Below are positions 174-31,484 of a stretch of 64,000 nucleotides of DNA, one piece after another. The translations under genes were made by a program, and so were the position numbers. The notes below the pieces were generated by a model. The model made no database searches. It was not told the DNA's origin and saw only the letters and a list, made by a program, of their open reading frames with translations. Each line of letters starts with the position of its first letter. Within the stretch, counting starts at the first letter, position 1. This DNA comes from Candidatus Methanoperedens sp. BLZ2 (lineage in GTDB: Archaea > Halobacteriota > Methanosarcinia > Methanosarcinales > Methanoperedenaceae): contig NZ_NTMG01000084.1 in NCBI RefSeq assembly GCF_002487355.1, positions 1 through 64,000 of the forward strand. Direction: 5' to 3'.

Positions 174-1055
174 TTAAATAAAAATCCAGATCGCAATTAC
201 TCCTGCAATCACTATGCAGGCAAGAATTACTGCATCGATCCATTTCCTGTTTATCTTGCGCTCAGTTTTCTCCTTTTCGAAGTAAGTATCCATGTTTTTA
301 AGGAGATAATCCCTGATCATTGTCATATCGAACAATTTGAACCCTACAGTAACATAGGCTGCCCAGGAATAATAAAGATAGACATAGAAGAATAATAGAC
401 CGAATAAAATACCCATCATAATATTTGGTCCCCATGCTGCATCAAGTATAATTCCCCCGACAGGAACGGTCATTATTGGAGCAAGCGCCCAAACCCAAGC
501 CATCTTGTTATTGAAAAGTTTATATTCTGATGTGAATAATGCCCACCATATCAGGTAAATAACCAGGATAAAATAATGAACAATACCCAGCGGATATTCA
601 GCCACATATACTAATGCAGAGAACGTAAAGACTATCACTACAAGAACTTTTGCTATAAATTTAAAAGATGCGCCCGGAAAAATATATACTTTTGAAGCAT
701 CCATGTCCTGCATCTTTGTCACATAATCAAGAGTCGTATCCACCCTTCGATTGGTCTGCATTACCTGTGTTTCCATTGCATTGATCCTGCCAACCGTATC
801 AGTAAGCATATTCATAATTGGCTTAATTTTATAATCCCATTCCTTATCCATTTTATCGTTAGCGATTTTCTGCATAAGAATATGCCTGACACCGATCCAT
901 GCAGTCATGTAAGAGAAGACTATTATAATGAGATCTATCAGGATACCAACTAGATTACCGATAAAAAATGCATCAATTATAAGTGATATTGTTGCAAATA
1001 AGCCTACTACCATACCCAGTAAGATAGCACTGAAGACTGCGATTTTATCTTTCAT
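174..1055 (-). CDS. polytopic membrane protein, last gene of cytochrome cluster A
   Basis: A 293-residue integral membrane protein of no family I recognise. It has two N-terminal membrane segments (about residues 5-30 and 32-55), a soluble stretch with a likely coiled coil (about 60-120), four or five further membrane segments (about 130-235), then a charged region and a final membrane segment ending in WIFI. It is clearly paralogous to the 337-residue protein at the end of cluster B: both share the order TM-TM-coiled coil-TM block and the pattern WW-x5-EY-x-L followed by W-x-A/M in the TM block. The start is supported by a GAGATGA sequence just upstream. It is the last gene of a run led by multihaem cytochromes, so a role as membrane anchor or conduit for them is an inference from context. 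Confidence 0.75.
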   Translation of the reverse strand: MKDKIAVFSAILLGMVVGLFATISLIIDAFFIGNLVGILIDLIIIVFSYMTAWIGVRHILMQKIANDKMDKEWDYKIKPIMNMLTDTVGRINAMETQVMQTNRRVDTTLDYVTKMQDMDASKVYIFPGASFKFIAKVLVVIVFTFSALVYVAEYPLGIVHYFILVIYLIWWALFTSEYKLFNNKMAWVWALAPIMTVPVGGIILDAAWGPNIMMGILFGLLFFYVYLYYSWAAYVTVGFKLFDMTMIRDYLLKNMDTYFEKEKTERKINRKWIDAVILACIVIAGVIAIWIFI

Positions 1056-1100: not shown

Positions 1101-4100
1101 CTAATAATTATAAATCCTCTGGTAATCAAGGTATAAGATTCCCTGCTGCTGTGCGCTTGCGTTCAAATCCATATAACGAACAAGTGAATAGGACTTATTA
1201 ATACTTCCTGCATTACCCGCCAGTGTTCCATAGGAGATCAACTCTTCGGGGTATAAAGTAATGTTGCGGTAGGATAGTGATGTATCGTTTAGAGTTGTCC
1301 TGTTGTTCCATGATGAACCATTCCAGAGCTGCACCGTGAAGTTATCTCCGGAAACATTGTATCTCAGCTCCAGTGTATGTATACTGGCGTCCGGTATATC
1401 AGTGGTATTCGTTGTGACATTGAGCTGGTACGATCCACTCGCATTAACTTCTGCAAAGACTGAAACAGCCCCATCACTTGCATTCCGGGCGCTGCTGAAG
1501 TTCGATACTGTTCCTGTATCATTTATGAAACTAAATACATAAGTGAGTTCAGAGGAAGTAGCTGCTGTATTATTGACCCATGTAGTATTCACATTACTGT
1601 AATTATCCACCGTTCGTGTTGAAATTGTGTATGTCAAATTCGGTGCAAAATAACTTGCATTGTAGAATTGCCAGCCTCTGGTTACATTCGTCTTGAACAC
1701 ACTATCGATATATATTTCCACATGATCAAAGTCAGGATTTGACGGATCTGACCATGTCCAGTTAATATACAAAGGTGTTGAAGTAGCTGAAATGGTGTTG
1801 ATACTGGCTGGCGGTGTGGTATCATATAGTGTCTTATTCGCGCTGGTGTTGTCTGCTCCGCTAATTGTGATCTCTAAATATTCGGTATTAAATCCGGCTT
1901 TTGAATAGCTGAAGTTATAGGTGCCATTTGAAAGATTGGTTATGGAATAATATCCTGATGCTGAGGTATTACTCTGTTTGCTGCCATTCTGGACCAGGAC
2001 ACTTCCCAATCCTGCACCGGCATTATCAAACACATAACCGCTTACATTATAAGATGGTATGGATTTCACGGTAACAGTGATAGTCTCAGGCGCTGTTCCG
2101 CCATAATTATCGCTGCTATTGAAGTACCAGACATAGATTCCCACGTCATCAGTATTGGTCTGCCAGGAATAGGTGCCTGTTGTACTGTTCAATGTGCCGT
2201 TCGTTGCATTCGTGCCGTAGGTGATTGTGTCATTATCCGCATCTGTTGCTGAAACTATGAAAGTTAACAATGAGCCTGCTGTTACTGTCTTGTTTCCAAT
2301 TGTGGTTTGATCAGGCACGTTGTTTGAAACCTGGACATTATTGGAGACAGGGGTCGTGTTCAATGTTCCTGTGCCTGAACTATTGTATGAATAGACAGAA
2401 ATATTGCTCCAACCATGGGCTGCAACTGTAGTGTTGTTGTAGGTGCTGATTGTTCCGTTCGTCCAGAGGTTGTTAACGCTTACGTTATAGCTATCCGTGT
2501 CATTGCCTGCTCCGGCTTCCCATGTATGATTTATCCAGAAGTTGCCCTGGGTGCTAATGAGGTTCACGGGAATCGGCGGGAGATAGGTCGGAATTTCAGC
2601 TACAGTTACGGTTACGGTGAAATTTGCAGATGAAACTGAACCATACCCGTCTGTTACGTTTATCTTCAAGGAATGGATGCCTGCATCACTGCTTGCTGCC
2701 GTCCAGATAAATGTACCATTATTGGTATAGAACGTACCGTTGGTGAAGTTCCGACCAAAAGCCGGCGTGTCGAAATCCTGGTCGCTTGATGTCGGATAGA
2801 TGGAGACTGTGTCACCAGCTGTAATAGTATAGCTGGATGAAATATTTGCGATCGTTACTAAATTATTGGAAACCTGGGTGTTCCGGGTTAAAGCAGTAGT
2901 ATTCAATGTACCTGTGCCTGAACTATTGTATGAATAGACAGAAATGTTGCTCCAGCCATGCGGACCGACTGTGCTGTTATTATAATTGGCTGTCGTTCCA
3001 TTTATCCATGCGCCGTTAACGTTTACGTTGTAGCTGTTCGTGTCATTGCCTGCTCCTGGTTCCCAGCTATGATTTATCCAGAAGTTGCCCTGGGTGCTGA
3101 TGAGGTTGACCGGTGATGGTGGCGTGTAATTCACGGATAATGCTGCGGTCACTGTGATGGTAATGGTTTCACCATCAAATCCGCCGTAATTATCGGTGCT
3201 ATTGAAGTACCAGACATAGGTTCCCGCATCGCTGCTGTCGGTCTGCCATGAATATTCTCCAGTTGTGGCATTAAGGCTACCATTGGTGGCATTGGTGCCG
3301 TAGGTGATTATGTCATTATCTAAATCATTAGCTGTAACATTGAAGGTCAATAGATCGCCTGCTGTTATTGTCTTATCTCCAATACCTGTCTGGTCGGGTA
3401 TGTTATTGGCTAGCTGGATATCCTGGGAGACAGGAGTAAGGTTAAGGGTTCCCGCGCTTGAAGCGTTGTAGGCATGGACCGAAATGTTGCTCCAACCATG
3501 GGCTGCAACTGTAGTGTTATTGTAGGTGTTGATTGTTCCGTTCGTCCAGAGGCCGTTCACGTTTACGTTGTAGCTATCCGTATCATTGCCCGCTCCTGGT
3601 TCCCAGCTATGATTTATCCAGAAGTTACCCTGAGTGCTGATGAGGTTGGTCGGTGATGGAGGCGTGTAATTCACGGGTAATACTGCGGTCACTGTGATGG
3701 TAATGGTTTCACCATCAAATCCGCCGTAATTATCGGTGCTATTGAAGTACCAGACATAGGTTCCCGCATCGCTGCTGTCGGTCTGCCATGAATATTCTCC
3801 AGTTGTGGTATTGATCATACCGTTCGTTGCATTTGTTCCATAGGTGATTATGTCATTATCCGCATCTGTTGCTGAAACTGTAAATGTTAACAGGTCGCCG
3901 GCCGATACGGTCTGATTATCTGTGTGGGACTGGACTGGTATATTATTCAATACCTGTGTTTCACCGGAAATAGGGGTAAGGCTCAGCGTTCCACTGCCCG
4001 AAGAATTGTAAGCATAGACAGTTATGTTGCTCCAGCCATGCGGGGCGATGCTGGAATTGATATAATTACTGGTCGTGTCGTTTGTCCATGTACCATTAAC

Positions 4101-7100
4101 GTTTACATTATAGCTGTCAGTGACATTGCCTGCTCCTGGTTCCCAGGTGTAATTGACCCAGGAGCTGCTCAGAGTACTGTTAAGATTTACAGGATCTGGC
4201 GGGAGATAGGTCGGAATCTCGGTAACGGTTATGGTTATTGTTTCGGTCGCTGTGCCACCATAATTATCGCTGCTATTGAAGTACCATACATAAGTTCCAG
4301 TGTCAGTACCATTTGTTAGCCAGGAATATTCTCCGGTTGTGGCATTGATCGTGCCGTTAGTGGCATTGGTGCCGTAGGTGATTGTGTCATTATCTAAATC
4401 ATTAGCCATAACATTAAAGGCCAATAGATCGCCGGCTGTTATTGTCTTATCTCCAATACTCGTCTGGTCGGGTATGTTATTGGTAAGCTGGATATTCTGG
4501 GAGACAGGGGTAAGGCTCAGCGTTCCACTGCCTGAAGCATTGTAGGCATAGACTGTTATGTTGCTCCAGCCATGCGGGACTATGCTGTTATTGACGTAAT
4601 TGTTGGTTGTACCGTTCGTCCAGCTGCCATTAACGCTTACGTTGTAGCTGTCCGTGTCATTGCCCGATCCTGCTTCCCAGCTATGATTTATCCAGAAGTT
4701 ACCCTGAGTGCTAATGAGGTTGACCGGTGATGATGGCGTGTAATTCACGGGTAATACTGCGGTCACTGTGATGGTAATGGTTTCTGTTGCTGTTCCGCCG
4801 TAATTATCGGTGCTATTGAAGTACCAGACATAGGTTCCCGCATCGCTGCTGTTGGTTTGCCAGGAATATTCTCCGGTTGTGGCATTGATCGTGCCGTTCG
4901 TTGCATTCGTACCATAGATGATTGTGTCATTATCCGCATCTGTTGCTGAAACTATGAAAGTTAACAATGAGCCTGCTGTAACTGTCTTGTTTCCAATTGT
5001 GGTTTGATCAGGCAGATTGTTGGCAAGCTGTGTATTACTGGAGACAGGGGTGGTGTTCAGGGTTCCCGTGCCTGAGGCGTTGTATGAATATACCGAAATA
5101 TTGCTCCACCCGTGTGCTGCAACTGTAGTGTTATTGTAAGTGCTGGTTGTTCCATTTGTCCATGTGCCGTTAACATTTACATAGTAGCTGTCTGTGACAT
5201 TGCCTGCTCCCGGTTCCCATGTATAATTGATCCAGAAGTTGCCCTGGGTGCTAATGAGGTTCACAGGAACTGGCGGGAGATAGGTCGGAATTTCGGTTAC
5301 AGTTACATTTACGGTGAAATTTGCAGATGAAACTGAACCATACCCGTCTGTTACGTTTATCTGCAACGAATGGATGCCTGTATCGCTGCTTGCTGTTGTC
5401 CAGATGAATGTACCGTTATTGGTATAGAATGTACCGTTGGTGAAGTTCCGATCAAAAGCCGGCGTATCTAAATCCTGGTCGCTTGATATCGGATAGATAG
5501 AAATTGTGTCACCAGCTGTAATAGTATAGCTGGATGAGATATTTCCGATCGTTACTAAATTATTGGAAACCTGGGTGTTCCGGGTTAAAGCAGTAGTATT
5601 CAATGTTCCTGTGCCTGAACTGTTGTATGAATAGACAGAAATGTTGCTCCAGCCATGCGGGTCGACGCTGGTATTGATGTAATTGATGATTGTATCGTTT
5701 GTCCATGTGCCATTAACATTTACATTGTAGCTGTCAGTGACATTGCCTGCTCCTGGTTCCCAGCTATGATTTATCCAGAAGTTGCCCTGGGTGCTAATGA
5801 GGTTGACCGGTGATGGTGGCGTGTAATTCACGGGTAATACTGCGGTCACTGTGATTGTAATAGTTTCACTCGCAACTCCACCGTAATTATCGCTGGAATT
5901 GAAGTTCCAGGTATATATTCCCGTATCGCTGCTATTGGTCTGCCAGGAATATTCTCCGGTTGTGGCATTGATCGTGCCGTTCGTTGCATTCGTGCCGTAG
6001 ATGATTGTATCATTATCCGCATCTGTCGCTGAAACTATGAAGGTTAACAATGAGCCTGATGTTACTGCTTTATCCCCGATAGGGGCTTGCAGGGGAGCAG
6101 CATTCAATACCTGCGTTTCACCGGAAACCGGGTTGAGACTCGGGGTTCCACTGCCTGAAGCATTGTAGGCATAGACTGTTATGTTGCTCCAGCCATGCGG
6201 ACTGATGCTGGTATTGATGTAATTATTCGAAGTACCGTTTGTCCATGTGCCGTTCACGTTTACATTATAGCTGTCTGTGACATTGCCTGCTCCTGGTTCC
6301 CATGTGTAATTGACCCAGGAGCTGCCACGGGTACTGTTGAGATTTACAGGATCTGGCGGGAGATAAGCCGGAATTTCGGTAACGGTTATAGTTATTGTTT
6401 CGGTCGCTGATCCGCCGTACGTATCATTTGTTTCGAAATACCAGACATAAGTCCCGACATCGCTTGCATTTGTTGGCCAGGAATAGGTTCCGGTTGTGGT
6501 GTTCAGTGTGCCGTTGGTTGCATTTGTGCCGTAGGTGAGTGGATCAGAATCCGCATCCGTGGAGATGATGGAGAAGGTCAGTTCCATTCCGGCTGTTACT
6601 GCTTTATCCCCGATAGGGGCTTGCAGGGGAGCAGCATTCAATACCTGCGTTTCACCGGAAACCGGGTTGAGACTCGGGGTTCCACTGCCTGAAGCATTGT
6701 AGGCATAGACTGTTATGTTGCTCCAGCCATGCGGGCCGACTGTAGTGTTATTGTAGGTGCTGGTTGTTCCATTTGTCCATGTACCATTAACGTTTACATT
6801 ATAGCTATCCGTAACATTGCCTGCTCCTGGTTCCCATGTGTAATTGACCCAGGAGCTGCCACGGGTACTGTTGAGATTTACAGGATCTGGCGGGAGATAA
6901 GCCGGAATTTCGGTAACGGTTATGGTTATTGTTTCGGTCGCTGTGCTGCCATAATTATCGCTGCTATTGAAGTACCATACATAAGTTCCAGTGTCAGTAC
7001 CATTTGTTAGCCAGGAATATTCTCCGGTTGTGGCATTGATTGTGCCGTAGGTGGCATTTGTCCCATAAGTGATCGTGTCATTATCCGCATCTGTCGCTGA

Positions 7101-10100
7101 GATATTGAAGGTTAACAGGTCGCCTGCTGTTATTGTCTTATCTCCAATACCTATCTGGACAGGGATGTTATTGGCAAGCTGGATATCCTGGAAGACAGGG
7201 GTGGCGTTCAGGGTGCCTGGGCCCAGACTGTTGTAGGCATAAACTGTGATGTTGCTCCAGCCATGCGGTTCAACTGTAGTGTTGTTGTATGTGCTTGTAG
7301 TTCCGTTCGTCCAGATGCCGTTCACGCTTACGTTATAGCTATCCGTAGCATTACCTGCTCCCGGTTCCCAGGTGTGATTTATCCAGAAGTTACCCTGGGT
7401 ACTTGAGAGGTTAACAGGAACTGGCGGAACAAGGGCCGGGATTTCGGTTACGGTCACGTTGATGGTTTCAGTCGATGTGCCGCCATAATTATCAGTACTA
7501 TTGAAGTACCAAATGTAAATTCCAGCGTCAGTACTATTTGTTGGCCAGGAATATTCTCCAGTTGTGGCATTAAGGCTGCCGTAGGTGGCATTTGTCCCAT
7601 AAGTGATCGTGTCATTATCCGCATCTGTTGCTGAGACATTGAAGATTAACAGGTCGCCTGCTGTTACGGTCTTGTTTCCAATTATGGTCTGATCGGGCAC
7701 ATTGTTAGGTATTGTAATGTTGAACCAGACATTTGTTGTATTAATGTTTCCATATATATCAGCGGTCCGGGCGCTGATATTCTGAATCTCATGCGGCGAT
7801 AATCCGGTACGGTTCCAGAAAGTTGTAGTGCTGTTAGCCACAAAAGCAGCGGTTCCATTTGAATAATTGAAATTGGTATTATTGAAATCTACATCCGCCG
7901 GATTAGTCCATGTATTATTGATATAAAAGTTACCTGTTATCATATTCGGATTAGATACTGAGTCCAGCGGCGTATTATCATAGATCGTTTTGTTCGCATT
8001 TATTATAACTGCTCCGCTAAATGAAAATTCAAAATAGCCAGTACTAAATCCGTCTTTAGAATAGCTGAAATTATATGTTCCGTTTGACAAATTTGTTATT
8101 GAATAGTAGCCTGAAGGAGATGTAATATTCTGATAACTGCCATTCTGCACCAGCACACCCGATAACGGTGAACCAAAATTATCGAATACAAACCCGCTTA
8201 TGCTATTATTGCTTCCACCGCTGCCCCCTCCCCCCTCTACTCCTCCCATGCTTCCAGCCGTAACATTCCAGCTCCAGTTGCGTGAAATAGAATCATATCC
8301 ATCGTTTGAAATGGCCGTTATGTTATAAATTCCAACGCTTGCTACTGAATTTGTATAATTTGCAGATGATATGCCCGTGACCGTGAATTTTTCAATGCCG
8401 TTATTGTACCAGGTGACATCTCCAATTCTATTAAGAGTCAGGCCGAATGTTTGAGCAATACCGGATGGAGTAACGGGATCTACAGGTGGTAATGAATCTA
8501 TGATAGAAAAAGGGACATCATTAACTGTAACATTAATCGTTTCATTCGCCACACCACCATATCCATCGCTGGAATTGAAATCCAATATATATACACCTGC
8601 ATCTCCATAGCCAGGGACCCATAAGAACTGCCCTGAAGTTGCATTTAAAGTGCCATTTATTGCATTAGTTCCATAAGTCATTGTGTCATTATCAGCATCC
8701 ACAGAGGAGATATTGAATGCAAGCAATTCGCCTTCATTTACTGTTTTATTTCCAATTGGAGACAAAACCGGGATATTATCCGGTATGGTAGCATTGAACC
8801 ATACAAGAGTCTCATTCTCATTTCCGAAATTATCTACCGTCCGGGCAGTAATATTCTGAACATAATGCGGGGAAAAAGTAAGATTGAGATAATTTGTAGA
8901 GTTGTTAAGACTCTGGAAAGTACTTCCATTGCCATATCTGAACATCGTTCTATTGAAGTCAATATCTTGCGGATTTATCCATGTATTGTTTATGAAGAAA
9001 TTACCGGTTGTTGAATTTGGATCGGTAACCGAACCCGGAGGTGTCCTGTCAAAGAGAGTCTTATTCATATTTTCCATAGTAATGCCGCCAAGTGAAAATA
9101 TGAAATAATCACTGTCAAATCCGGCTTTGGAATATGTGAAATTGTATTCGCCATTAGGGATATCTGTTATCGAGTAAAAGCCTGATTCTGAGGTATTATT
9201 CTGGTAGCTACCATTTTGAACAAGCACACCTGAAAGTGGTGTACCAAAATTATCGAATACATATCCGCTTATATTGTTCGAAGTACCACTTCCTATACCT
9301 CCGCCGCTACCGCCGCTTCCACCGCTTCCACCGCCTCCTCCACCTCCGGTTCCGTTAGTGACATTCCATATCCATGTCCTTGCGGTTGAATCATAACGAT
9401 CACTGGCAATTGCTGTAATATTATAAACTCCAGGAATTCTTTTTGAATCTGTATAACTTGCAGATATCACGCTTAAGACCCTGAAAATCTCAGAACCGTT
9501 ATTATACCAGGTGATATCTGCAAATCTGTTCAGGGTTGCGGAAAATGTTTGAGATACACCCGCTGGTGTGGTTGGGTCGCCGACAGGTGATGAATCGGTT
9601 ATGTTCAAAGGAAAAATTATCCGGAATTCAACATCATAATAAGGTTCTTCACGAACATTGAAACTTATTGCGCCACCAGGTGCTGGCCAGCCCGCGGATT
9701 TACATGATATGCAGACAAGGCTGCGGTACAAATGAGGAACTGTATTTATATTTGAAAAGAAATTGCCTGGATGCGTTGAATTATAAGCTTGATGGCATTG
9801 TTCACACGTAGTCTTTTTTATGGAATGTTGTTGGTTCTGGAATTTCGTATCGTTATTGTTATGGCATGTCCTGCACCATTCTTCAGGGGTGGAGTTAGAA
9901 TTATTATGGTAATCCACTTGCGTTCCATTTCTGGCAAGTACCACAGCATGACCGCCTAACGAAACCGCATCAAAAATATCTTTATGGCAGTCTTTACATG
10001 AGACATTTTTTATATTATGCTTTCCCCCCTGTCTCATAGCATCATATGATAGATTTAATGTTCCTTCGGTTTTAAAATCTGAGATTATCCAGTTTCCATT

Positions 10101-10496
10101 ATTATTTTTAATTGTATAGTCGATATATTCTGGCCGGGAATAGTTTAAGATCGCGTTATAGGTCGAATGGCAGGCTACACACCCTTGTGAACCCATAGGT
10201 GAAAAATCCGGGTGGGCTTCTAATGTATCGCTCATACTCGATGTAGCATGACAGTAACCACACTCTGGTTGCTTGTTAGTATGGTTAGTTGCAGATCTGG
10301 CATGACAGTTAACACATGAGAAATTTGTATGCTGGTCTGATGTGGAAAGCTGTGCCTTGATATCTCCATGGCATTTTATGCATTTGTCCTGGACTGATTG
10401 ATAAAATTGATGATCGCCGATAATGAAGGAAACGGTCTGACTAATAGTGGTTATTGCTAAAACCAAAACTACTATCAGATATAAATTCTTATTCAT
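1101..10496 (-). CDS. giant surface multihaem cytochrome with Ig/fibronectin-like repeats (3131 aa)
   Basis: An N-terminal hydrophobic segment (residues 5-25) is followed by a cytochrome domain (about 30-280) with seven CxxCH motifs and a final CISCK. This part matches the whole of the neighbouring 295-residue cytochrome. After it come an Ig-like (PKD-type) segment, a glycine/serine-rich linker (about 382-400), carboxypeptidase-regulatory-like domains containing SGYVFDN (three in all, one near the C-terminus), cadherin-like Ig domains (consensus DADNDTITYGTNA), and ten fibronectin-like modules marked by PVNL-x-STQG and HGWSN, alternating with Ig domains. N-x-S/T sequons are extremely dense. 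I see no C-terminal membrane segment, so anchoring would be N-terminal. It is probably an extracellular, heavily N-glycosylated fibre or adhesin with a haem head that passes electrons outward; the function is inferred. It lies in cluster A, 57 bases after the eight-motif cytochrome gene. The ribosome-binding site is weak. Confidence 0.88.
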   Translation of the reverse strand: MNKNLYLIVVLVLAITTISQTVSFIIGDHQFYQSVQDKCIKCHGDIKAQLSTSDQHTNFSCVNCHARSATNHTNKQPECGYCHATSSMSDTLEAHPDFSPMGSQGCVACHSTYNAILNYSRPEYIDYTIKNNNGNWIISDFKTEGTLNLSYDAMRQGGKHNIKNVSCKDCHKDIFDAVSLGGHAVVLARNGTQVDYHNNSNSTPEEWCRTCHNNNDTKFQNQQHSIKKTTCEQCHQAYNSTHPGNFFSNINTVPHLYRSLVCISCKSAGWPAPGGAISFNVREEPYYDVEFRIIFPLNITDSSPVGDPTTPAGVSQTFSATLNRFADITWYNNGSEIFRVLSVISASYTDSKRIPGVYNITAIASDRYDSTARTWIWNVTNGTGGGGGGGSGGSGGSGGGIGSGTSNNISGYVFDNFGTPLSGVLVQNGSYQNNTSESGFYSITDIPNGEYNFTYSKAGFDSDYFIFSLGGITMENMNKTLFDRTPPGSVTDPNSTTGNFFINNTWINPQDIDFNRTMFRYGNGSTFQSLNNSTNYLNLTFSPHYVQNITARTVDNFGNENETLVWFNATIPDNIPVLSPIGNKTVNEGELLAFNISSVDADNDTMTYGTNAINGTLNATSGQFLWVPGYGDAGVYILDFNSSDGYGGVANETINVTVNDVPFSIIDSLPPVDPVTPSGIAQTFGLTLNRIGDVTWYNNGIEKFTVTGISSANYTNSVASVGIYNITAISNDGYDSISRNWSWNVTAGSMGGVEGGGGSGGSNNSISGFVFDNFGSPLSGVLVQNGSYQNITSPSGYYSITNLSNGTYNFSYSKDGFSTGYFEFSFSGAVIINANKTIYDNTPLDSVSNPNMITGNFYINNTWTNPADVDFNNTNFNYSNGTAAFVANSTTTFWNRTGLSPHEIQNISARTADIYGNINTTNVWFNITIPNNVPDQTIIGNKTVTAGDLLIFNVSATDADNDTITYGTNATYGSLNATTGEYSWPTNSTDAGIYIWYFNSTDNYGGTSTETINVTVTEIPALVPPVPVNLSSTQGNFWINHTWEPGAGNATDSYNVSVNGIWTNGTTSTYNNTTVEPHGWSNITVYAYNSLGPGTLNATPVFQDIQLANNIPVQIGIGDKTITAGDLLTFNISATDADNDTITYGTNATYGTINATTGEYSWLTNGTDTGTYVWYFNSSDNYGSTATETITITVTEIPAYLPPDPVNLNSTRGSSWVNYTWEPGAGNVTDSYNVNVNGTWTNGTTSTYNNTTVGPHGWSNITVYAYNASGSGTPSLNPVSGETQVLNAAPLQAPIGDKAVTAGMELTFSIISTDADSDPLTYGTNATNGTLNTTTGTYSWPTNASDVGTYVWYFETNDTYGGSATETITITVTEIPAYLPPDPVNLNSTRGSSWVNYTWEPGAGNVTDSYNVNVNGTWTNGTSNNYINTSISPHGWSNITVYAYNASGSGTPSLNPVSGETQVLNAAPLQAPIGDKAVTSGSLLTFIVSATDADNDTIIYGTNATNGTINATTGEYSWQTNSSDTGIYTWNFNSSDNYGGVASETITITVTAVLPVNYTPPSPVNLISTQGNFWINHSWEPGAGNVTDSYNVNVNGTWTNDTIINYINTSVDPHGWSNISVYSYNSSGTGTLNTTALTRNTQVSNNLVTIGNISSSYTITAGDTISIYPISSDQDLDTPAFDRNFTNGTFYTNNGTFIWTTASSDTGIHSLQINVTDGYGSVSSANFTVNVTVTEIPTYLPPVPVNLISTQGNFWINYTWEPGAGNVTDSYYVNVNGTWTNGTTSTYNNTTVAAHGWSNISVYSYNASGTGTLNTTPVSSNTQLANNLPDQTTIGNKTVTAGSLLTFIVSATDADNDTIIYGTNATNGTINATTGEYSWQTNSSDAGTYVWYFNSTDNYGGTATETITITVTAVLPVNYTPSSPVNLISTQGNFWINHSWEAGSGNDTDSYNVSVNGSWTNGTTNNYVNNSIVPHGWSNITVYAYNASGSGTLSLTPVSQNIQLTNNIPDQTSIGDKTITAGDLLAFNVMANDLDNDTITYGTNATNGTINATTGEYSWLTNGTDTGTYVWYFNSSDNYGGTATETITITVTEIPTYLPPDPVNLNSTLSSSWVNYTWEPGAGNVTDSYNVNVNGTWTNDTTSNYINSSIAPHGWSNITVYAYNSSGSGTLSLTPISGETQVLNNIPVQSHTDNQTVSAGDLLTFTVSATDADNDIITYGTNATNGMINTTTGEYSWQTDSSDAGTYVWYFNSTDNYGGFDGETITITVTAVLPVNYTPPSPTNLISTQGNFWINHSWEPGAGNDTDSYNVNVNGLWTNGTINTYNNTTVAAHGWSNISVHAYNASSAGTLNLTPVSQDIQLANNIPDQTGIGDKTITAGDLLTFNVTANDLDNDIITYGTNATNGSLNATTGEYSWQTDSSDAGTYVWYFNSTDNYGGFDGETITITVTAALSVNYTPPSPVNLISTQGNFWINHSWEPGAGNDTNSYNVNVNGAWINGTTANYNNSTVGPHGWSNISVYSYNSSGTGTLNTTALTRNTQVSNNLVTIANISSSYTITAGDTVSIYPTSSDQDFDTPAFGRNFTNGTFYTNNGTFIWTAASSDAGIHSLKINVTDGYGSVSSANFTVTVTVAEIPTYLPPIPVNLISTQGNFWINHTWEAGAGNDTDSYNVSVNNLWTNGTISTYNNTTVAAHGWSNISVYSYNSSGTGTLNTTPVSNNVQVSNNVPDQTTIGNKTVTAGSLLTFIVSATDADNDTITYGTNATNGTLNSTTGTYSWQTNTDDVGIYVWYFNSSDNYGGTAPETITVTVKSIPSYNVSGYVFDNAGAGLGSVLVQNGSKQSNTSASGYYSITNLSNGTYNFSYSKAGFNTEYLEITISGADNTSANKTLYDTTPPASINTISATSTPLYINWTWSDPSNPDFDHVEIYIDSVFKTNVTRGWQFYNASYFAPNLTYTISTRTVDNYSNVNTTWVNNTAATSSELTYVFSFINDTGTVSNFSSARNASDGAVSVFAEVNASGSYQLNVTTNTTDIPDASIHTLELRYNVSGDNFTVQLWNGSSWNNRTTLNDTSLSYRNITLYPEELISYGTLAGNAGSINKSYSLVRYMDLNASAQQQGILYLDYQRIYNY
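2060..7440 (-). repeat. tandem Ig/fibronectin coding repeats in the giant gene
   Basis: Ten modules, each with a fibronectin-like half (PVNL...HGWSN) and usually a cadherin/He_PIG-like half (TVTAG...DADND...YGG), give units of roughly 170 codons, about 500 bp. Neighbouring units are very similar in DNA. The stretches near 6064-6200 and 6598-6732 look identical over about 135 bases. Such repeats can expand or contract by recombination and can also be collapsed by short-read assembly. Confidence 0.85.
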
Positions 10497-10553: not shown

Positions 10554-11441
10554 TCACGACATCGTTACATCGAAATACGGCTCTTGATGTACTTTAAACT
10601 TCAATGTTGTGCCAGGTACCTGCCATCCCACAGATTTACATGATATGCACACCAGACTTCGGTATAAACGAGGAACAGTTTTGATATTAGTATAGAAATT
10701 ACCCGGATGGGCTGGTAAATTATAGGCTTCATGGCATTCTTCACAGGTTGTTTTGCGTGCTGAATGCTGTGCTGAAAATTTGTTATCTCTCGGATTATGG
10801 CATGTGAGACACCATGCTTCCCTGCTTATTGTGTTATTTGTATTATGGTAAAGTGATTCTTTCCCATCTTTTCCTTCGACGACAGCATGACCCTTCACAG
10901 AAACCGCATCGAATATATCTTTATGGCAATCTTTGCACGATACATTCTTAACATTATGGTTGCCTCCGGATTTCATTGCATTATAAGAGAGATTCAATAC
11001 GCCTGTTGTTGCTAAATTGGAGATGATCCAGTTTCCCGAATCGTTCGTGATTGTGTAAGAAATAAATTCGGGTCTTGAATAATTAATTATTACATTATAG
11101 TTCGTATGACAAGCTATACAACCTTCTGAACTCAAAGGTATGAAATCGAAATGGGCTTCATCGGTATCACCCAATTGCGTTACATCATGGCAGTATTCAC
11201 ATTCCGGAGCCTTATTTGTATGATTAAGCGGTGATTTGGGATGACAGTTTGTACAGGAAAATGAGGAGTGCTGGGATGATGCGGATAATTGGTTCTTTAC
11301 ATTCTCATGGCAATTTATGCATTTATCCTGGCCTTGCTGGAAAATTGGAATATCGTTACTGATAAATGAAATTGTTTGAATCAATGCAGTCACTATAACT
11401 GCAAGAATTACTACATTATATAAACTTTTATTTTTATTCAT
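10554..11441 (-). CDS. membrane-anchored multihaem cytochrome c (7 CxxCH + 1 CxxCK)
   Basis: The 295-residue product starts with a hydrophobic segment (about residues 7-27) and carries CINCH, CTNCH, CEYCH, CIACH, CKDCH, CLTCH and CEECH, then CISCK near the C-terminus. Several extra histidines could be distal ligands. It aligns over its full length with the head of the 3131-residue protein and ends right after the shared EPYFDV segment, where that protein continues into its repeats. Its start overlaps the stop of the signal-peptidase gene by four bases, so the two are translationally coupled. The CxxCH motifs establish covalent c-type haem binding. A role in electron transfer outside the cytoplasmic membrane is inferred. 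The cognate cytochrome maturation genes are not in the window. Confidence 0.9.
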   Translation of the reverse strand: MNKNKSLYNVVILAVIVTALIQTISFISNDIPIFQQGQDKCINCHENVKNQLSASSQHSSFSCTNCHPKSPLNHTNKAPECEYCHDVTQLGDTDEAHFDFIPLSSEGCIACHTNYNVIINYSRPEFISYTITNDSGNWIISNLATTGVLNLSYNAMKSGGNHNVKNVSCKDCHKDIFDAVSVKGHAVVEGKDGKESLYHNTNNTISREAWCLTCHNPRDNKFSAQHSARKTTCEECHEAYNLPAHPGNFYTNIKTVPRLYRSLVCISCKSVGWQVPGTTLKFKVHQEPYFDVTMS

Positions 11442-12124
11442 CTTTTATTCCCAAACATAGATAATATTAAAGCGCTAAAAGCAATTAAGGTTATGACGTA
11501 TCCCCATGTTCTTATTGTCATGAAGAGATTCTGGAAGAATTCATACTGGTCACCGAATCTGCTTAGTTTACCTTCTTTGGAAAAATCCAGGATGAAAAGA
11601 GACCCAACACCTTTTAGCACGACAGGATGGCCTTCTATGACAACAGCTTTTGAAATAACATCATTCTTAGTTGTTCCATAATCATCAGCCGCAGGATTAT
11701 TATCTCCTTTTGTGGATACATAATTACTTTGAATACCGGTGACCCTGTGAGTCACAGGATTTGGAACATTGGCTGCCCTAAATGTAATTATATCTCCAAT
11801 TTGGGGGTCTTTAGATATCGATTGTGTCATTACAAGATCACCTCTTTGGAATTGAGGCTTCATAGAATCCGATATGACCGCTGCAAATCCAATAAGTTTT
11901 AAGCCAAATCCTGCTATAAGAATTATCAGGATAATTAACAGGACAATATCTTGCTTCCGGGTATCTTTTTGTATAACAGCTCTGCTGTATCTGTTTTTCA
12001 TATACCATGAAGAAACAAGGCGCATAAAAACAGAATTTTCAGATTTGTAAAGGTAAAATCCTGACAGTACTAATGCAAAAATCCCCGAAACAAGCAATGG
12101 CACTGTGTAATCTACTTCTTTCAT
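11438..12124 (-). CDS. archaeal signal peptidase I (S26B, Sec11-like) of cluster A
   Basis: The 228-residue membrane protein has hydrophobic segments at about residues 7-25, 60-80 and 203-222. The catalytic serine sits in ISDSMKP (about residue 85), the Sec11-type histidine in NPVTHRV and the acidic residue in TKGDNNPAADD. These are the hallmarks of archaeal and eukaryotic signal peptidases, which use histidine rather than the bacterial lysine. It lies six bases after the CARDB-protein gene and overlaps the following cytochrome gene. Position inside a cytochrome operon, together with a paralog in the same place in cluster B, suggests it is dedicated to processing these cytochromes. That specialisation is inferred. 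Confidence 0.88.
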   Translation of the reverse strand: MKEVDYTVPLLVSGIFALVLSGFYLYKSENSVFMRLVSSWYMKNRYSRAVIQKDTRKQDIVLLIILIILIAGFGLKLIGFAAVISDSMKPQFQRGDLVMTQSISKDPQIGDIITFRAANVPNPVTHRVTGIQSNYVSTKGDNNPAADDYGTTKNDVISKAVVIEGHPVVLKGVGSLFILDFSKEGKLSRFGDQYEFFQNLFMTIRTWGYVITLIAFSALILSMFGNKR

Positions 12125-12129
12125 TTAAA

Positions 12130-13587
12130 TCAGCCGCGTGGTTTTTTCTTAAGTATTTTTTTTATCTTACTGCTGAATATTTCTACTTGATTGGTGAGTT
12201 TGATCTTTATATCCGATATCTTATTTTCTTCGGGCTTATTCGAAATTCCCTGTGAAAGAGCATTAACGGGAATTTCTTCTTTTAACTTATTTCTTACATA
12301 GTAAAGCATTCCGGCAAACATAAGGAACACCATTACCATCGATAATTTCAAACTGTTCTCCTTAACTTTAGTAAGAACAGTATTTTGTCCTGTTGCCGAA
12401 GTTCCGCCATCCTGCACAAATACATTCCTGAAAAGTGCAGGGGCATCAGATACTGTTATTTTGTTTATCCCTGTATTTTTCAAAGTTACGGGTATTTCTA
12501 TCGACTTTTCTTCAAGATACGGCAGCTCGACTTCAGACGAACCGATCGGTTCCCTGTTAGAATAAACCGTTATGGTCTTGTTTCCGGTCTTACCATTATT
12601 GATCAAGTTCACTGTTACGATCACATTGTCACCTACTCCGGCAAACTCTTTATTAACATTCATTCCGGTTATTGTTATTTTTGGAAGTTCAAGTCTCGTG
12701 GAATCGGTCTCATTCTTAATGGTGAACGTCAACTCAGCATTCCTGTATTTCACATCATTTGTGTCGGCCCCGAAATGCAACTTGAAAGTTCCGATTTTTC
12801 CTGCTTTTGCATCGAAGGTAATATTGGAGGTACTGAGCCCTTTTACAGTAACGTCTTTTGTAGATACAAGACTATTATCCACCAGCATAGCAAGCTTGAT
12901 CTGGGCATCATCTTTGTAATTGTTATCGATCTTGACTTCGATCAGGAGTTTCTCTCCAATTATGCGGTCAGTACTATCATCAACGAACCTGACATCATGA
13001 AGAAGGAGCCTGTCAGGCGGATATATACTAATATTTTTGTCTATCTTAAAATTTAATACTGCCCGTGCTGCCGGAACGCCAAGCTCACGAAGCACACCCA
13101 GATCTTTAGCGTTTGCACCAGTATCGTAGAATGTCTTATACATATCCGGATTAATGCCGATAGCAAATGGGTCACTTGAAACATTTTCATCGTATGCTTC
13201 ACGGTCAACCATATCGAATACAACGATCTTGATCTTGTAGATTCCTTCTATCCAATCGTCTTTGGGATGCAGGGTATAATAAACAATATTAGGGTCGTAA
13301 CTTCTTTTGAAGGAACTTATTTTTTCTACTGCCACGATATTATCCATAGGATCGTAAACCGCATAGACAAAACCCAGGGCTGACAATCGTTTATATGCCA
13401 TGTTTTTAGCTTCCGAATAAACGATTATATCAGCCTTCGGATCCGGAGGATATGCAGCAGACCAGTGCTTTACATAAGCGCCATCACTCTGGCTTTTGGC
13501 TGCAAGATCAAAAAGGAATTCACCCTGGGCTGATACAAGTGGCGAAAAGAGCAGTAGAATTAAAACGGAAATAATTACATATCTCAT
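12130..13587 (-). CDS. secreted CARDB-domain protein with a C-terminal membrane anchor
   Basis: The 485-residue product has a signal peptide (MRYVIISVLILLLF...VSA, cleavage near residue 20). An N-terminal beta-rich domain follows (about 30-150), with YPPDPKADIIVYSEA and WIEGIYKIKIVVFD segments. Then come two CARDB/Ig-like modules (about 190-290 and 300-395), the second with ITGMNVNKEFAGVGDNVIV. A membrane helix (about 410-432) and a lysine-rich cytoplasmic tail end the protein. The N-terminal domain is shared with the 429-residue protein upstream of MinD. It is an extracytoplasmic scaffold or adhesin-like protein held in the membrane, and no enzymatic motif is seen. A TATA-like element in the 98-base gap upstream suggests a promoter of its own in addition to read-through. 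Confidence 0.78.
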   Translation of the reverse strand: MRYVIISVLILLLFSPLVSAQGEFLFDLAAKSQSDGAYVKHWSAAYPPDPKADIIVYSEAKNMAYKRLSALGFVYAVYDPMDNIVAVEKISSFKRSYDPNIVYYTLHPKDDWIEGIYKIKIVVFDMVDREAYDENVSSDPFAIGINPDMYKTFYDTGANAKDLGVLRELGVPAARAVLNFKIDKNISIYPPDRLLLHDVRFVDDSTDRIIGEKLLIEVKIDNNYKDDAQIKLAMLVDNSLVSTKDVTVKGLSTSNITFDAKAGKIGTFKLHFGADTNDVKYRNAELTFTIKNETDSTRLELPKITITGMNVNKEFAGVGDNVIVTVNLINNGKTGNKTITVYSNREPIGSSEVELPYLEEKSIEIPVTLKNTGINKITVSDAPALFRNVFVQDGGTSATGQNTVLTKVKENSLKLSMVMVFLMFAGMLYYVRNKLKEEIPVNALSQGISNKPEENKISDIKIKLTNQVEIFSSKIKKILKKKPRG

Positions 13588-13685: not shown

Positions 13686-14660
13686 TCAGACTATGGTCTC
13701 ATTTGATATTGCAAAAACATCACCGGATTGGGTCCCAAAGGTCTCTATTCTTACTGGATTGGTCTGGTAGTTTTTAGTAATTGTAATATTGTTGCCATCA
13801 GAACTGGTTTCAAAAGCTATGGTGCTCGGACGCGTCCAGTTTATCGATACTGCTGTTGAAGTATGGCAGGATATACAATTGTCATTGGTATTATGTTCCA
13901 TACCATATTTGATGAATGCCTCATGTATTATATCCGGAGTATTGTTCAGGTATTCTGAATGACAGTCTGCGCAAAGTATAGTGGAAGATGCATGGGCTAA
14001 TGTACCTGAAGTTATTACTTTTGATCCTGAGCCTGTAAGATCATCAGTACCATCTGGATATGGATTCACATTGATTTTCCTTGTTTCAAGAGCCGAATTC
14101 GAAGTGGCCGGATCTGTGTCTTTTGGCACACCGTTAATATACGTTGAAATTGCGTTCTCTCTTTCATAATTATAAATTATACCAGCTTCCCCTAGTGTCA
14201 TATTTCCCATATATTGGCCGTTTTCATCACGGAATTGCGCCTCATCGTTTCCAGCAGCTGCCCACTGGTCGATTGTGATCTCACCTGAGATTGATTTTGG
14301 GAAATTTCCACTCTGGTAGTTCTGGATTGTGGTCGCAAGAACCCTGTTCCCTATGCTCGATGGTCCTGTTACGTTTATATATATCAATCGTTCATAAGCA
14401 TTGTCGCCGCTTGCGTATTGAACGCCTTTTTGGACACGGTGGCAATCGGAACATGTAAAGTTGTTATGTATAAAACCAGAATGTAATTGCATATCTATCT
14501 CACCATGACATTTCTTGCATGGGACCTGGGAGCCGACGGGATCAATGTTATAGAAACTATGTCCACCGCTAAAGATAGAGAGGGTATTGGGGATAAGCCA
14601 TATTGAAATCCCTGCTAATGCAAGCAATACCCACACTAATTTCATATCACTCCCACTCAT
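13686..14660 (-). CDS. membrane-anchored tetrahaem cytochrome c of the 'FAGQH' family
   Basis: The product has 324 residues. A hydrophobic N-terminus (about 8-30) ends in SIFSGGHSFYNID, followed by CKKCH, CSDCH, CADCH and CISCH, so four c-haems. Between the second and third motifs lies a long insert (about 85-235) with little recognisable character, starting ASGDNAYERL as in the two five-haem cytochromes nearby. The protein therefore belongs to the same family as the 434-, 418- and 231-residue cytochromes of this window. Its start overlaps the preceding small gene by 14 bases, so MKLVW six codons in is an alternative start. It probably faces the outside of the cytoplasmic membrane and could be a filament-type or shuttle cytochrome, which is a guess from size and haem number. 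Confidence 0.86.
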   Translation of the reverse strand: MSGSDMKLVWVLLALAGISIWLIPNTLSIFSGGHSFYNIDPVGSQVPCKKCHGEIDMQLHSGFIHNNFTCSDCHRVQKGVQYASGDNAYERLIYINVTGPSSIGNRVLATTIQNYQSGNFPKSISGEITIDQWAAAGNDEAQFRDENGQYMGNMTLGEAGIIYNYERENAISTYINGVPKDTDPATSNSALETRKINVNPYPDGTDDLTGSGSKVITSGTLAHASSTILCADCHSEYLNNTPDIIHEAFIKYGMEHNTNDNCISCHTSTAVSINWTRPSTIAFETSSDGNNITITKNYQTNPVRIETFGTQSGDVFAISNETIV

Positions 14661-15099
14661 AAAAAGCTGTTGTCTTATACATTACAACAGCTGTACTGCC
14701 AATGATCCTTATCGGCAAAATAAGAATATCTCCTTGCTTTGGTTCTTTGCCATCCCTGAAATAGATCTTTACCTCATAATGCCCATCATCTTTAGTAAAA
14801 GGTGTTGATGCCCAGAAACTTGCAGGCGCAGTATCCAACGCGTTCAGACGGGCGTTAACTTCTATTTCCGGAAAAGTGGGTATCGCATCCGCCCGCTTAT
14901 AAAAAACCGGAACATTTGACTGCACAAATGTGACATTATTTATCTGGATAGCTCCTTTTTCTGACAGATTTGTTGAAATCTTTAATACTAGCACGGGTTT
15001 TGCCAGACCCATATCTGTTGCATGCTGATAAAGATAGTAACCGGCGACTGAAAAAATCAGCAATGCAATAATTACATATTTTATGTTTTTTTTATCCAT
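14647..15099 (-). CDS. small membrane-anchored protein of cytochrome cluster A
   Basis: A 150-residue protein with one N-terminal membrane segment (about 8-25) and a soluble beta-rich domain (LVLKISTNLSEKG, YEVKIYFRDGKEPKQGD). It resembles the 145-residue lipoprotein in the equivalent place of cluster B: both have the pattern V-x-VF/Y-x6-PTFPEI/ESFPAI-x-A-R, then a G-x-Y/H-x-V/F-x-I-x-F-K/R-D segment. Function is unknown. Its fixed place between a six-haem and a four-haem cytochrome suggests an assembly factor or a structural partner. It starts directly at the stop of the six-haem gene and overlaps the following cytochrome gene. Confidence 0.7.
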   Translation of the reverse strand: MDKKNIKYVIIALLIFSVAGYYLYQHATDMGLAKPVLVLKISTNLSEKGAIQINNVTFVQSNVPVFYKRADAIPTFPEIEVNARLNALDTAPASFWASTPFTKDDGHYEVKIYFRDGKEPKQGDILILPIRIIGSTAVVMYKTTAFYEWE

Positions 15100-15672
15100 T
15101 TATTTCACTCCGAATATAATATTAAATAATGATTTTATGAAATAGAATACTGTAAATTTTTCTAACTGAGCCTGTTCTTGAGACGTATTTGATGATAGGG
15201 CATTGGTATTATATACTTTTCCTTTTGCCCATGAACCATGACATATAGGACAGATATTATCGATGTTTTTTATGTGGATCGAATGGACCTTATTGCTATG
15301 GCAGGATACGCAAACATATCCATTGTTTTTGATCTTTATTACTGTAAAGTTATCCTCTGTATGGCATCTGGTGCACTCTATATTATTGTGACCATTGTGG
15401 AAGATCTGTTTCTGGCTTGCATTGACCATTGTATTTCCAAAATGGCAAGCTGTACAAATCTTTGGATTGTGATCAGATTCCAGAAGAGGAATGTTAAACT
15501 TATAATCGTGGCAGTTACCACATTCCTGACTTCCATAATCCGCTTTTATGGTTTCTAAATGACACCCAAAACATGGGGTAGGTTTATGCCAATCCATTTC
15601 TCCTGCCTTCGCAAGCCCGATACTGAATAAAATTGAAAAGATAATAAATAAGAATTTGATGTTTTTATTCAT
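15100..15672 (-). CDS. secreted hexahaem cytochrome c (cluster A)
   Basis: The chosen start is MNKNIKFLF, preceded by a GGAAAAAAA sequence, which gives 190 residues. An in-frame start 54 bases upstream also exists but would put a polar stretch ahead of the signal peptide. The signal peptide is about 20 residues and ends in LAKAGEMDWH. Six motifs follow: CFGCH, CGNCH, CTACH, CTRCH, CVSCH and CPICH, spaced as in small NrfH/doxH-like multihaem proteins. A hydrophobic C-terminal end (VFYFIKSLFNIIFGVK) may attach it to the membrane. It is paralogous to the 224-residue cytochrome of cluster B. It probably acts as an electron-transfer module on the outer face of the membrane. The start nearly abuts the stop of the 80-residue gene upstream. 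Confidence 0.87.
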   Translation of the reverse strand: MNKNIKFLFIIFSILFSIGLAKAGEMDWHKPTPCFGCHLETIKADYGSQECGNCHDYKFNIPLLESDHNPKICTACHFGNTMVNASQKQIFHNGHNNIECTRCHTEDNFTVIKIKNNGYVCVSCHSNKVHSIHIKNIDNICPICHGSWAKGKVYNTNALSSNTSQEQAQLEKFTVFYFIKSLFNIIFGVK

Positions 15673-15907
15673 TTTTTTTTCCATTTCTATAATTGTTGAA
15701 CATTTTTGAGTCTGAAAGTTTTTCAACTATTTCTTCATGAGCAGTATTTTTCCAAACTTCCAGTAATAGATTCAAGAATGATGAATCCTTTAGCGTACTT
15801 ATCTCTGCTACATTACATTGAGCTTCTTTTGATAAGCATGATTTAAACTCAGCTTTGATATTGTCAAACCTGATCTTATCAACATCGTCTATCCTGATGA
15901 CTTTCAT
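15665..15907 (-). CDS. 80-aa soluble protein at the head of cluster A, unknown
   Basis: A short charged, soluble protein starting MKVIRIDDVDKIRF, with no membrane segment and two cysteines not arranged as haem motifs. I do not recognise a family. Its last codons overlap the start region of the six-haem cytochrome gene, and a TATA-like element lies about 30 bases upstream, so it is probably the first cistron of cluster A. Coding is supported by the tight junction and a GATGGG sequence just before the ATG. A small regulator or assembly factor is possible, but nothing in it says so. Confidence 0.55.
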   Translation of the reverse strand: MKVIRIDDVDKIRFDNIKAEFKSCLSKEAQCNVAEISTLKDSSFLNLLLEVWKNTAHEEIVEKLSDSKMFNNYRNGKKNE

Positions 15908-16064: not shown

Positions 16065-17369
16065 TTACGGGGTTGTCAATGCAGCGTAGGAATCGCTTGA
16101 TTCTCCAGTTAGAGCTGGAACAACCGTTGTATTGCTGGTACCATCACTAATATACATAGTTTGTGTTGGTGTCCAGGTATAGGACTTGTCACCCACACCG
16201 AAGGTCGCGCCAGAGCCGTTACCGTATATGTCAACGTGGACTGTTCCCTCAACTTTTGTATCGGAAACGCTATAAGTACCGGTTGCGCTCTCGGTTGCAG
16301 TGAATGCGAGCTTGTAGCCCTTATTGAATGAAATGTCCACTGCTACGTGTGTATGACATCCAATACATGCACCGTTATTTGCTTTACCATTCGGTCCGCC
16401 GAATCTGTTTAAGCCATCATCAGTTTTTACCCATGCATTGTGGGCTTCTGATGTGCCAGTGTCATCTGACATGCCGGTGAGATTGAATCCGCCTGCAGAC
16501 AAAGTAGTCATTTTCTTCGCACCGTTTAAAGTTCCGGAACCACCATAGTGACAGTTATTGCATGGCGTTGTTCCTGATTCCTGTTCGACACGTCTGTAGT
16601 GTGCCATAGGTTCTTCTCCTCCATGGCATTCCATACAGGAAACAAGTGATGCTGCATGATATTTGCTGCCCGGGTTGACTGTTTTAGAACCAGCATTGTC
16701 CAGTGAAAAACTCCCATCGGCGGCAACTGTTGCTTTTGACAGATCTAATCCACCTTCAGCTGACGAAGTATTTGTATCCAATGGTTTACCAGTTGTTGTA
16801 CTATAGGTTTGCATTAATCTGAAACTCGACTTCGGACCTATATATAGAGTTGCATTTTCAGTAGCATTGGAATTAACATCTAGTGGAGAAATTTGACCTG
16901 CCCCATGTAACAGAGTTACACCAGCAAGAGTTGTTTGTTTGTTTGTGAATAAGTCTGTGCCGTTGATAACTGCAGGATAATTGCCTGCTTCCCAATCAGC
17001 GACTGTCAATATTGCAGATCTGACTCTTACACCAGCCCCATCAGGCTGATTATAATAGAAAATGCGCCCGAATGCATTGTCACCGCTTGCTGAACCCTGC
17101 TCTATCCTGTGGCAGTACTCGCACTTGAATGCTGCGTGTGGCCCTGGTGTAAGAGGTCCATTTGCTGGATTTGTATTTGCGTTTGATCCTAATTCTGCTT
17201 TTACATCACCGTGACATTTCTGACACGGGACCTGGTTGCCTGTTGCGTCAATGTTATAGAACGAGTGCTGGCCAGCGAACAACGACATGGTTGATGGCAA
17301 AGCGAACACGCCTATTCCAACTAACGCAATTATTGCTAAAGTAAATTTTGCGTTCATTTTTTGATTCAC
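16065..17369 (-). CDS. pentahaem cytochrome c of the 'FAGQH' family, first of a tandem pair
   Basis: The product has 434 residues. An N-terminal hydrophobic segment runs into PSTMSLFAGQHSFYNID and then CQKCH, CEYCH, CMECH, CNNCH and CIGCH. Between the second and third motifs is a long variable insert (about residues 95-225). A conserved C-terminal beta-rich domain (about 330-434, with GTVHVDIYGNGSG) follows the last haem. It is nearly identical at both ends to the 418-residue cytochrome encoded 1.3 kb away, but the middle differs. A strong AGGATGTGA ribosome site precedes the start. The leader is about 100 bases long, and the promoter abuts an array of palindromes shared with the divergent response-regulator gene. 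It is probably a secreted or membrane-tethered electron carrier that is separately regulated. Confidence 0.88.
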   Translation of the reverse strand: MNQKMNAKFTLAIIALVGIGVFALPSTMSLFAGQHSFYNIDATGNQVPCQKCHGDVKAELGSNANTNPANGPLTPGPHAAFKCEYCHRIEQGSASGDNAFGRIFYYNQPDGAGVRVRSAILTVADWEAGNYPAVINGTDLFTNKQTTLAGVTLLHGAGQISPLDVNSNATENATLYIGPKSSFRLMQTYSTTTGKPLDTNTSSAEGGLDLSKATVAADGSFSLDNAGSKTVNPGSKYHAASLVSCMECHGGEEPMAHYRRVEQESGTTPCNNCHYGGSGTLNGAKKMTTLSAGGFNLTGMSDDTGTSEAHNAWVKTDDGLNRFGGPNGKANNGACIGCHTHVAVDISFNKGYKLAFTATESATGTYSVSDTKVEGTVHVDIYGNGSGATFGVGDKSYTWTPTQTMYISDGTSNTTVVPALTGESSDSYAALTTP

Positions 17370-23473: not shown

Positions 23474-24079
23474 ATGAAGATTAAGGCAAAAATAATTGGA
23501 AACAAGGTGCATGAAGTAGGCTACCGTGTATTCTTGCTTCGAAAAGCCCTTGAGCTGGGGGCGGAGCGATTCAATGCCTATAACACAAAGGAGAACGGAG
23601 ATCAGGTACTCATTTCATTCCTGGAGGGTGACAGCGATCAAATATCGATATTCCAGGATTATGTTCAGAATAATAAACCTGAAAATGCAAAGGTATCAGA
23701 TATCATTTTTGAAGACTATACTGGTTATCTGATAGGAATAGTTGATTATATGCATTTGATCCAGGTAGAGCAGCTAAGCAAGGGAATACCAGCCATCCTG
23801 AGCATAGACAGAAAACAGGATAAAATGCTGGAGAAACAAGACCAGATGCTGGAGAAACAAGACCAGATGCTGGAAAATCAAGACCAGATGCTGGAAAATC
23901 AAGACCAGATGCTGGAAAATCAAGAGAAGACTCTGGGGAAGTTAGATCAAACCAGGACGGAGATCAGCAGTGAGATCAAGGAATTGCGGCTGGATTTAAG
24001 ATCATATCTTGATGAAAAATTGATCAAAATCGAAAGCGATATATTGCAGATCAAGGCAAAAATCGGACTTGAAACATAA
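23474..24079 (+). CDS. acylphosphatase-like domain fused to a heptad-repeat coiled coil
   Basis: The 201-residue product begins with an acylphosphatase-like fold (1-95): GNKVHEVGYRVFLLRKA corresponds to the phosphate-binding loop with its conserved arginine, although the usual GRVQGVGFR is altered. A linker is followed by about five exact or near-exact heptads of the type DQMLEKQ/DQMLENQ (about 113-148) and a further alpha-helical stretch to the end. It should form a long coiled coil. I do not know its role. Acylphosphatase-type domains can also serve as non-catalytic binding modules. It lies 48 bases after the right end of the degenerate insertion element and is convergent with the membrane-protein gene that follows. 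Confidence 0.65.
   Translation: MKIKAKIIGNKVHEVGYRVFLLRKALELGAERFNAYNTKENGDQVLISFLEGDSDQISIFQDYVQNNKPENAKVSDIIFEDYTGYLIGIVDYMHLIQVEQLSKGIPAILSIDRKQDKMLEKQDQMLEKQDQMLENQDQMLENQDQMLENQEKTLGKLDQTRTEISSEIKELRLDLRSYLDEKLIKIESDILQIKAKIGLET
23813..23938 (+). repeat. 21-bp tandem repeat encoding coiled-coil heptads
   Basis: Six units of 21 bases (consensus AAxCAAGACCAGATGCTGGAR) lie head to tail; the middle four are nearly identical and the first and last are degenerate. Each unit adds one heptad without a frame change, so copy number could vary between strains. Confidence 0.85.
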
Positions 24080-24757: not shown

Positions 24758-24759
24758 AA

Positions 24760-25497: not shown

Positions 25498-25501
25498 TTT
25501 A

Positions 25502-26782: not shown

Positions 26783-26823
26783 GCACAACAATATACTGAT
26801 TAACTTATAAAGATTTTGAAAAT

Positions 26824-31460: not shown

Positions 31461-31484
31461 CTATGTACCTATCATTTCTGCATA

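Follow-up and report, generated by a model that had tools for sequence, protein, structure and literature searches.

A stalk-fused octahaem cytochrome of Methanoperedens as a candidate end or adaptor subunit of an archaeal cytochrome nanowire

The window analysed here, a stretch of 64,000 nucleotides from Candidatus Methanoperedens sp. BLZ2, encodes on its minus strand a protein of 3131 residues (1101..10496) in which an octahaem cytochrome head is fused to a stalk of ~2840 residues. The first module of the head is homologous to the filament subunits of the AvECN-type extracellular cytochrome nanowire (ECN), and the gene lies in a cluster with genes for such subunits. Judged from sequence, and with a probability of about one half, the fused protein belongs to an AvECN-type wire as a minor subunit, at its end or as an adaptor, and its stalk would tether that wire. 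Among electrically conducting filaments, this may be the first end piece known to carry a means of attachment. The cores of nanowire filaments are known but their ends are not, and no description of how cytochrome nanowires start, end or attach was found in the literature searched. Similarly, that search, largely of openly readable articles, returned no description of an octahaem ECN partner or of its stalked form, so prior notice is possible.

Architecture and integrity of the fused gene

The reading frame lies on the minus strand, the plus strand at 1101-10496 being riddled with stops; the sequence-only reading had given these coordinates correctly, without a strand. An open reading frame and orthologues define the gene as a whole. 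Its product begins with a putative signal or transmembrane segment (residues 1-25; 10422..10496), which is shared by ECN subunits and adjoined by a signal peptidase gene. The head that follows comprises a first tetrahaem module (residues 26-153; 10038..10421), which HMM and motif-masked hhalign comparisons class as ECN-subunit-like and which contains GxHxFY, four CxxCH, EAHxxF and a beta hairpin, and a second, divergent tetrahaem half (residues 154-290; 9627..10037), which ends in CISCK (DNA 9699-9713) and an EPYYDV strand. The seven CxxCH motifs (residues 39, 61, 79, 106, 167, 208 and 231) and the CISCK at 262 contain all 16 cysteines of the protein and fall within residues 39-266, in keeping with the earlier count of seven CxxCH and one CxxCK in the first 280 residues.

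The fusion point, at the residue where the solo paralogues end, opens a first PKD-like domain (residues 291-381; 9354..9626), followed by a Gly-rich hinge (residues 384-407; 9276..9347). The main stalk (2067..9281) holds the first two carboxypeptidase-regulatory-like (CPreg) domains, 12 Ig (Big_9) and 12 of 13 fn3-like domains, a second PKD-like domain and a second Gly-rich hinge (residues 755-763). A distal part (1569..2054), resolved by the iterated profile, carries the third CPreg and last fn3-like domains, and a conserved C-terminal beta-rich domain (residues 2977-3131; 1104..1568), found in four genomes, completes the protein on the same strand. No anchor was seen in this last domain, whose AF2 model (pLDDT 46) is too poor to use. 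With it the stalk counts ~31 domains. A Pfam scan of the protein returned Big_9 (8 stretches), CarboxypepD_reg (3), Cytochrome_C7 and a weak MtrC/MtrF domain match, with no S-layer domain, whilst the iterated profile found 12 Ig, 13 fn3-like and 3 CPreg copies; the Ig, fibronectin-like and carboxypeptidase-regulatory-like stalk first noted is confirmed. No recognisable ligand-binding domain was found in the stalk, and no source for it in another protein of the same genome, the Ig-fn3 unit having one weak outside partner (C59, 45% over 85 aa).

The protein contains 242 N-x-S/T sequons, where composition shuffles give 94 (117 at most among 500 shuffles). Of the spacings compared in the stalk, N-x-S/T alone is enriched, with 232 occurrences; other spacings occur 61-112 times and the reversed motif 100 times. 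All orthologues show this excess too. The window also encodes the oligosaccharyltransferase AglB (35748..38009, minus strand; PF22627, PF18079, PF02516), which is the predicted N-glycosylation machinery for these sequons. Both features expected of an N-glycosylated archaeal surface protein, sequon enrichment and AglB, are therefore present at the level of sequence, and the earlier picture of a haem-carrying head on a long, sequon-rich stalk is upheld, with glycosylation as a prediction. A PMT-type glycosyltransferase gene (20096-21838) adjoins the nanowire genes, and similar genes lie near the cluster in other genomes.

Ten of the 31 Methanoperedens genomes examined carry this cluster's octahaem, and eight have it fused to a stalk; named orthologues are those of M. 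nitroreducens ANME-2d, isolate Mnv1 and the MAGs Ig 1, LC 1 and LFW-24. Besides that of the window, complete open reading frames encode 3250 and 2590 aa, and the open frame of ANME-2d, whose orthologue lies on NZ_JMIY01000007 at ~308.9-319.5 kb, extends to ~3540 aa. Could assembly have joined a cytochrome gene to a repeat gene? Repeats of the stalk have exact stretches in common, the longest within the fused gene being ~140 bp, and the count of repeats may be somewhat inaccurate as a result; moreover, three of the eight fused copies run off contig ends and a fourth (G005) is frame-broken within the stalk. The junction itself, however, is unique sequence; in every fused copy it falls immediately behind EPY[FY]DV, the strand that ends the stand-alone octahaems, and it recurs identically in eight assemblies of independent genomes, one of them with 10 contigs. 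An artefact is thus refuted for the junction, and misassembly is left with a negligible probability. A tree of the heads is compatible with the fusion having arisen once (support 73/96, 78% of bootstraps), and the dN/dS ratios of head (0.09-0.17) and stalk (0.18-0.23) indicate that purifying selection acts on both alike. A viral contig collection contained no relative, and hence nothing in it pointed to a copy in Borgs or viruses.

Kinship of the head and its genomic setting

An ECN profile built from 17 tetrahaem ECN-like proteins spans the first head module from end to end, whole heads scoring 48-74 bits against <=29 bits for eleven control cytochromes. When the CxxCH letters are masked, the controls score nothing whilst many heads still score, that of the window weakly (E 0.047). 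In hhalign comparisons with masked motif letters, the first module matches ECN at 99.1% (E=6.8e-19, 132 columns), whereas a masked hexahaem control family is negative and controls remain below 1%. Homology of the first module to AvECN-type filament subunits is thereby shown, at the sequence level, to extend beyond the CxxCH motifs. The second half loses significance against ECN once its motif letters are masked, for which reason it is named a divergent tetrahaem half and not a proven second ECN module; the idea that the head consists of two or three identical ECN modules is weakened accordingly, the second half being ECN-like through the spacing of its haem motifs alone. A phmmer search of the PDB with the head alone did not match 8e5g, and a fold search with its AF2 model, a poor one (12 sequences, pLDDT 47), gave no match at E<=0.001.

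AvECN-family subunits are single tetrahaem modules of ~200-430 aa, which the fused protein is not; because of its eight haems in two halves and its stalk, it is classed as an ECN-associated relative and not as a filament subunit. The ECN-associated octahaem family, as defined in this analysis (alignment A4), has eight aligned haem sites, a conserved His and a C-terminal EP strand, all of which the fused protein possesses, together with the family's linkage to genes for ECN subunits, a signal peptidase and a membrane protein. An alignment of 11 diverse members contains 38 invariant columns. The original remark that the family was not a known one holds insofar as no NCBIfam family covers the fused protein, but its head does belong to this octahaem family that accompanies AvECN-type subunits.

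The last haem motif of the head bears on whether the protein could be a redox enzyme, with its CxxCK haem catalytic as in the NrfA nitrite reductase. Every solo copy in Methanoperedens has CxxCK at this site, as do four of the fused copies and four Archaeoglobus-like relatives, which speaks for such an enzyme. The same site is nonetheless CxxCH in the other four fused orthologues (L047, L050, L051 and L052), a natural Lys/His exchange at one haem, as read from the alignment, which argues that CxxCK tunes the haem rather than marking a catalytic site. Searches of PDB and NCBIfam likewise revealed no relation to NrfA, with just NrfH-like matches at the motif level; membership of the cytochrome c nitrite reductases was rejected, and a catalytic role is very improbable.

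The genes around the fused gene form a cluster, with those described here all on the minus strand. A membrane protein gene (174..1055) comes next after the octahaem gene wherever this flank was read in Methanoperedens genomes. On the other side lie a stand-alone octahaem paralogue (10554..11441; 7 CxxCH and CISCK, 61% identity to the head), a dedicated archaeal signal peptidase I (11438..12124; TIGR02228, PF10502), an uncharacterised membrane-anchored protein kept in the cluster, as found by cluster comparison (12130..13587), a tetrahaem ECN-like subunit (13686..14660), a small membrane-anchored protein, also kept (14647..15099), and a hexahaem cytochrome with a hydrophobic C-terminus (15100..15726). 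Further upstream are a putative nanowire filament subunit with 5 CxxCH (16065..17369), an AvECN homologue by its match to PDB 8e5g (E=1.6e-23; a search done for this copy), and a second copy whose product is 70% identical (18646..19902). The order filament subunit, hexahaem, small membrane protein, tetrahaem ECN-like subunit, CARDB-like membrane protein, signal peptidase I, octahaem, fused octahaem and membrane protein is kept in Methanoperedens. Two genomes (G027 and G010) have only the stand-alone octahaem, and two others (G015 and G024) carry just the fused form in this cluster, so the fused octahaem can function where the solo form is absent.

A second, parallel ECN cluster (28913-35751) includes a further tetrahaem ECN-like gene (32255-32950) and, on the minus strand, a stalkless 12-haem relative of the head (29895..31460; 11 CxxCH and CIACK), a protein of the same kind with one extra N-terminal ECN module; 8-haem versions take its place in other genomes. 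Uncharacterised genes at 24152-26791 and 28913-38009 of the window, and at loci L121, L118 and L123, recur with ECN subunits in several archaeal families. This set comprises a signal peptidase, a membrane protein, a CARDB protein, a hexahaem, a small protein, a MinD-type ATPase and a wHTH-like membrane protein, in varying combinations. Acylphosphatase-like genes also lie beside ECN clusters, both in the window (23474-24079, with a coiled-coil-like tail) and elsewhere (L044 6160-6744, L047 5961-6521, L050 11089-12616 and L059 3660-6057). The ECN region is flanked by a TnpB-like gene (22324-23394) and by an IS200-type transposase with a TnpB-like neighbour (39702-41599). Elsewhere in the same genome (G000:C1:3353-10126, L061), a 2257-aa cytochrome with 54 CxxCH is followed by proteins with 18 and 13 CxxCH that have a similar end sequence.

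Of 394 genomes of the phylum, 51 contain octa- to decahaem relatives. Apart from the fused Methanoperedens genes, their frames reach at most ~530 aa, and the relatives in this sample are hence stalkless. At the loci read, from several families including Archaeoglobus-like ones, they adjoin AvECN-related genes; at many of these loci the signal peptidase and membrane protein recur, and at some there are CARDB and MinD-type genes. The C-terminal EP motif is general, and a last CxxCK recurs in Archaeoglobus-like members. Since relatives beside ECN genes lack a stalk, the stalk is a feature added in Methanoperedens to an ancient minor component of the nanowire system.

A proposed role at the end of the wire

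We propose that the wire receives the ECN-like module at one of its ends, through the inter-subunit contacts used by filament subunits. In AvECN, three of the four haems take their distal His from the neighbouring subunit (PMC12203936), which makes it plausible that a subunit-homologous module can plug into a wire end. The divergent half, with its variant last haem (CxxCK or CxxCH), would then halt polymerisation and hand electrons on, and the glycosylated stalk of ~31 beta domains would tether the wire end to extracellular matrix, partner cell, mineral or S-layer. At ~4 nm per domain, the stalk would measure ~100 nm when fully extended. The reach through or beyond the S-layer suggested by the sequence-only reading is plausible. 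More specifically, and only tentatively, the protein could be an end subunit with its own covalent, glycosylated tether that docks the wire on a partner cell, mineral or matrix. Evidence of expression was sought in Methanoperedens and ANME papers, and the passages retrieved do not mention the fused gene.

A rather unlikely alternative places the protein at the cell-proximal end, with the octahaem feeding the wire from membrane cytochromes and the stalk embedding its base in or over the S-layer. Every wire needs a base, the octahaem genes directly adjoin those for the signal peptidase and a membrane protein, and in other families a stalkless octa- to decahaem adjoins the ECN genes at the loci read. 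On the other hand, the Pfam scan showed neither an S-layer nor a membrane-anchor domain in the stalk, and the thickness of an S-layer lies far below the length of a ~31-domain stalk. Nor do we consider it likely that the protein is a free-standing surface cytochrome-adhesin, whose head would act as a short-range reductase borne by the stalk and owe its ECN homology just to ancestry by duplication. Such a history would fit a paralogue that was duplicated and then fused, and Geobacter has multihaem cytochromes with fn3 domains (PMC6199725). Against it stand the linkage to ECN genes across the genus, that of the relatives across the phylum, and the two genomes in which the fused copy is the sole octahaem of the cluster.

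Under the reading preferred here, an end or adaptor subunit with a tethering stalk, the fused gene and its stalkless relatives constitute a conserved nanowire end-piece candidate across several archaeal families, whilst the genes conserved alongside them (signal peptidase, membrane protein, CARDB protein and MinD-type ATPase) are candidate nanowire assembly machinery. Methanoperedens offers a natural contrast between stalked and stalkless forms that makes the anchoring of wires by a methane-oxidising archaeon testable, with relevance for bioelectrodes and for the removal of methane where soils and sediments are anoxic.

Comparison with known systems

Among the closest known systems is AvECN of Archaeoglobus veneficus (PDB 8e5g, F2KMU8), a tetrahaem extracellular cytochrome nanowire subunit determined by cryo-EM. 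The fused protein shares with it the N-terminal signal, GxHxFY, four haem motifs and beta hairpin, and AvECN is homologous to the first head module and to the neighbouring filament genes. In contrast to its single four-haem module, the fused protein has eight haems, a second half that diverges, a final motif that is frequently CxxCK, and the 2840-residue stalk. OmcZ nanowires have homologues in Methanoperedens and Borgs, the nanowires of Methanoperedens have been discussed as OmcZ-type, and one Borg OmcZ precursor carries two extra beta domains (PMC10874420, PMC11208441). Eight haems, the same genus and a nanowire context are common to both; however, the cluster of the fused gene has a signal peptidase and AglB, no OzpA was seen there, and membership was rejected as a phmmer search of the PDB with the head returned no OmcZ chain at E<=1.

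The joining of a cytochrome to adhesin-type domains, at first thought unfamiliar, has precedents. ANME archaea possess MHC-A/B with S-layer domains and MHC-C with a pectin-lyase-like domain, carrying 20-80 haems (PMC9012536). Like the fused protein, these belong to methanotrophic archaea and combine a multihaem cytochrome with surface-protein domains for the passage of electrons past the S-layer. The fused protein differs in its Ig/fn3/CPreg stalk and ECN ancestry, and having eight haems and no S-layer family in the Pfam scan it was excluded from MHC-A/B. A Geobacter multihaem cytochrome is joined to a fibronectin type III domain (PMC6199725), a likeness by description; that protein is bacterial, and neither a comparable stalk nor an ECN link is reported there. 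The nearest functional likeness, by analogy only, may be a pilus with a tip adhesin, in which a filament-subunit-like domain bears an adhesive part and is encoded with the filament. The proteins are unrelated and the filament here conducts electrons. Were the end subunit with adhesin to prove true, adhesion and electrical contact would be combined in a single molecule.
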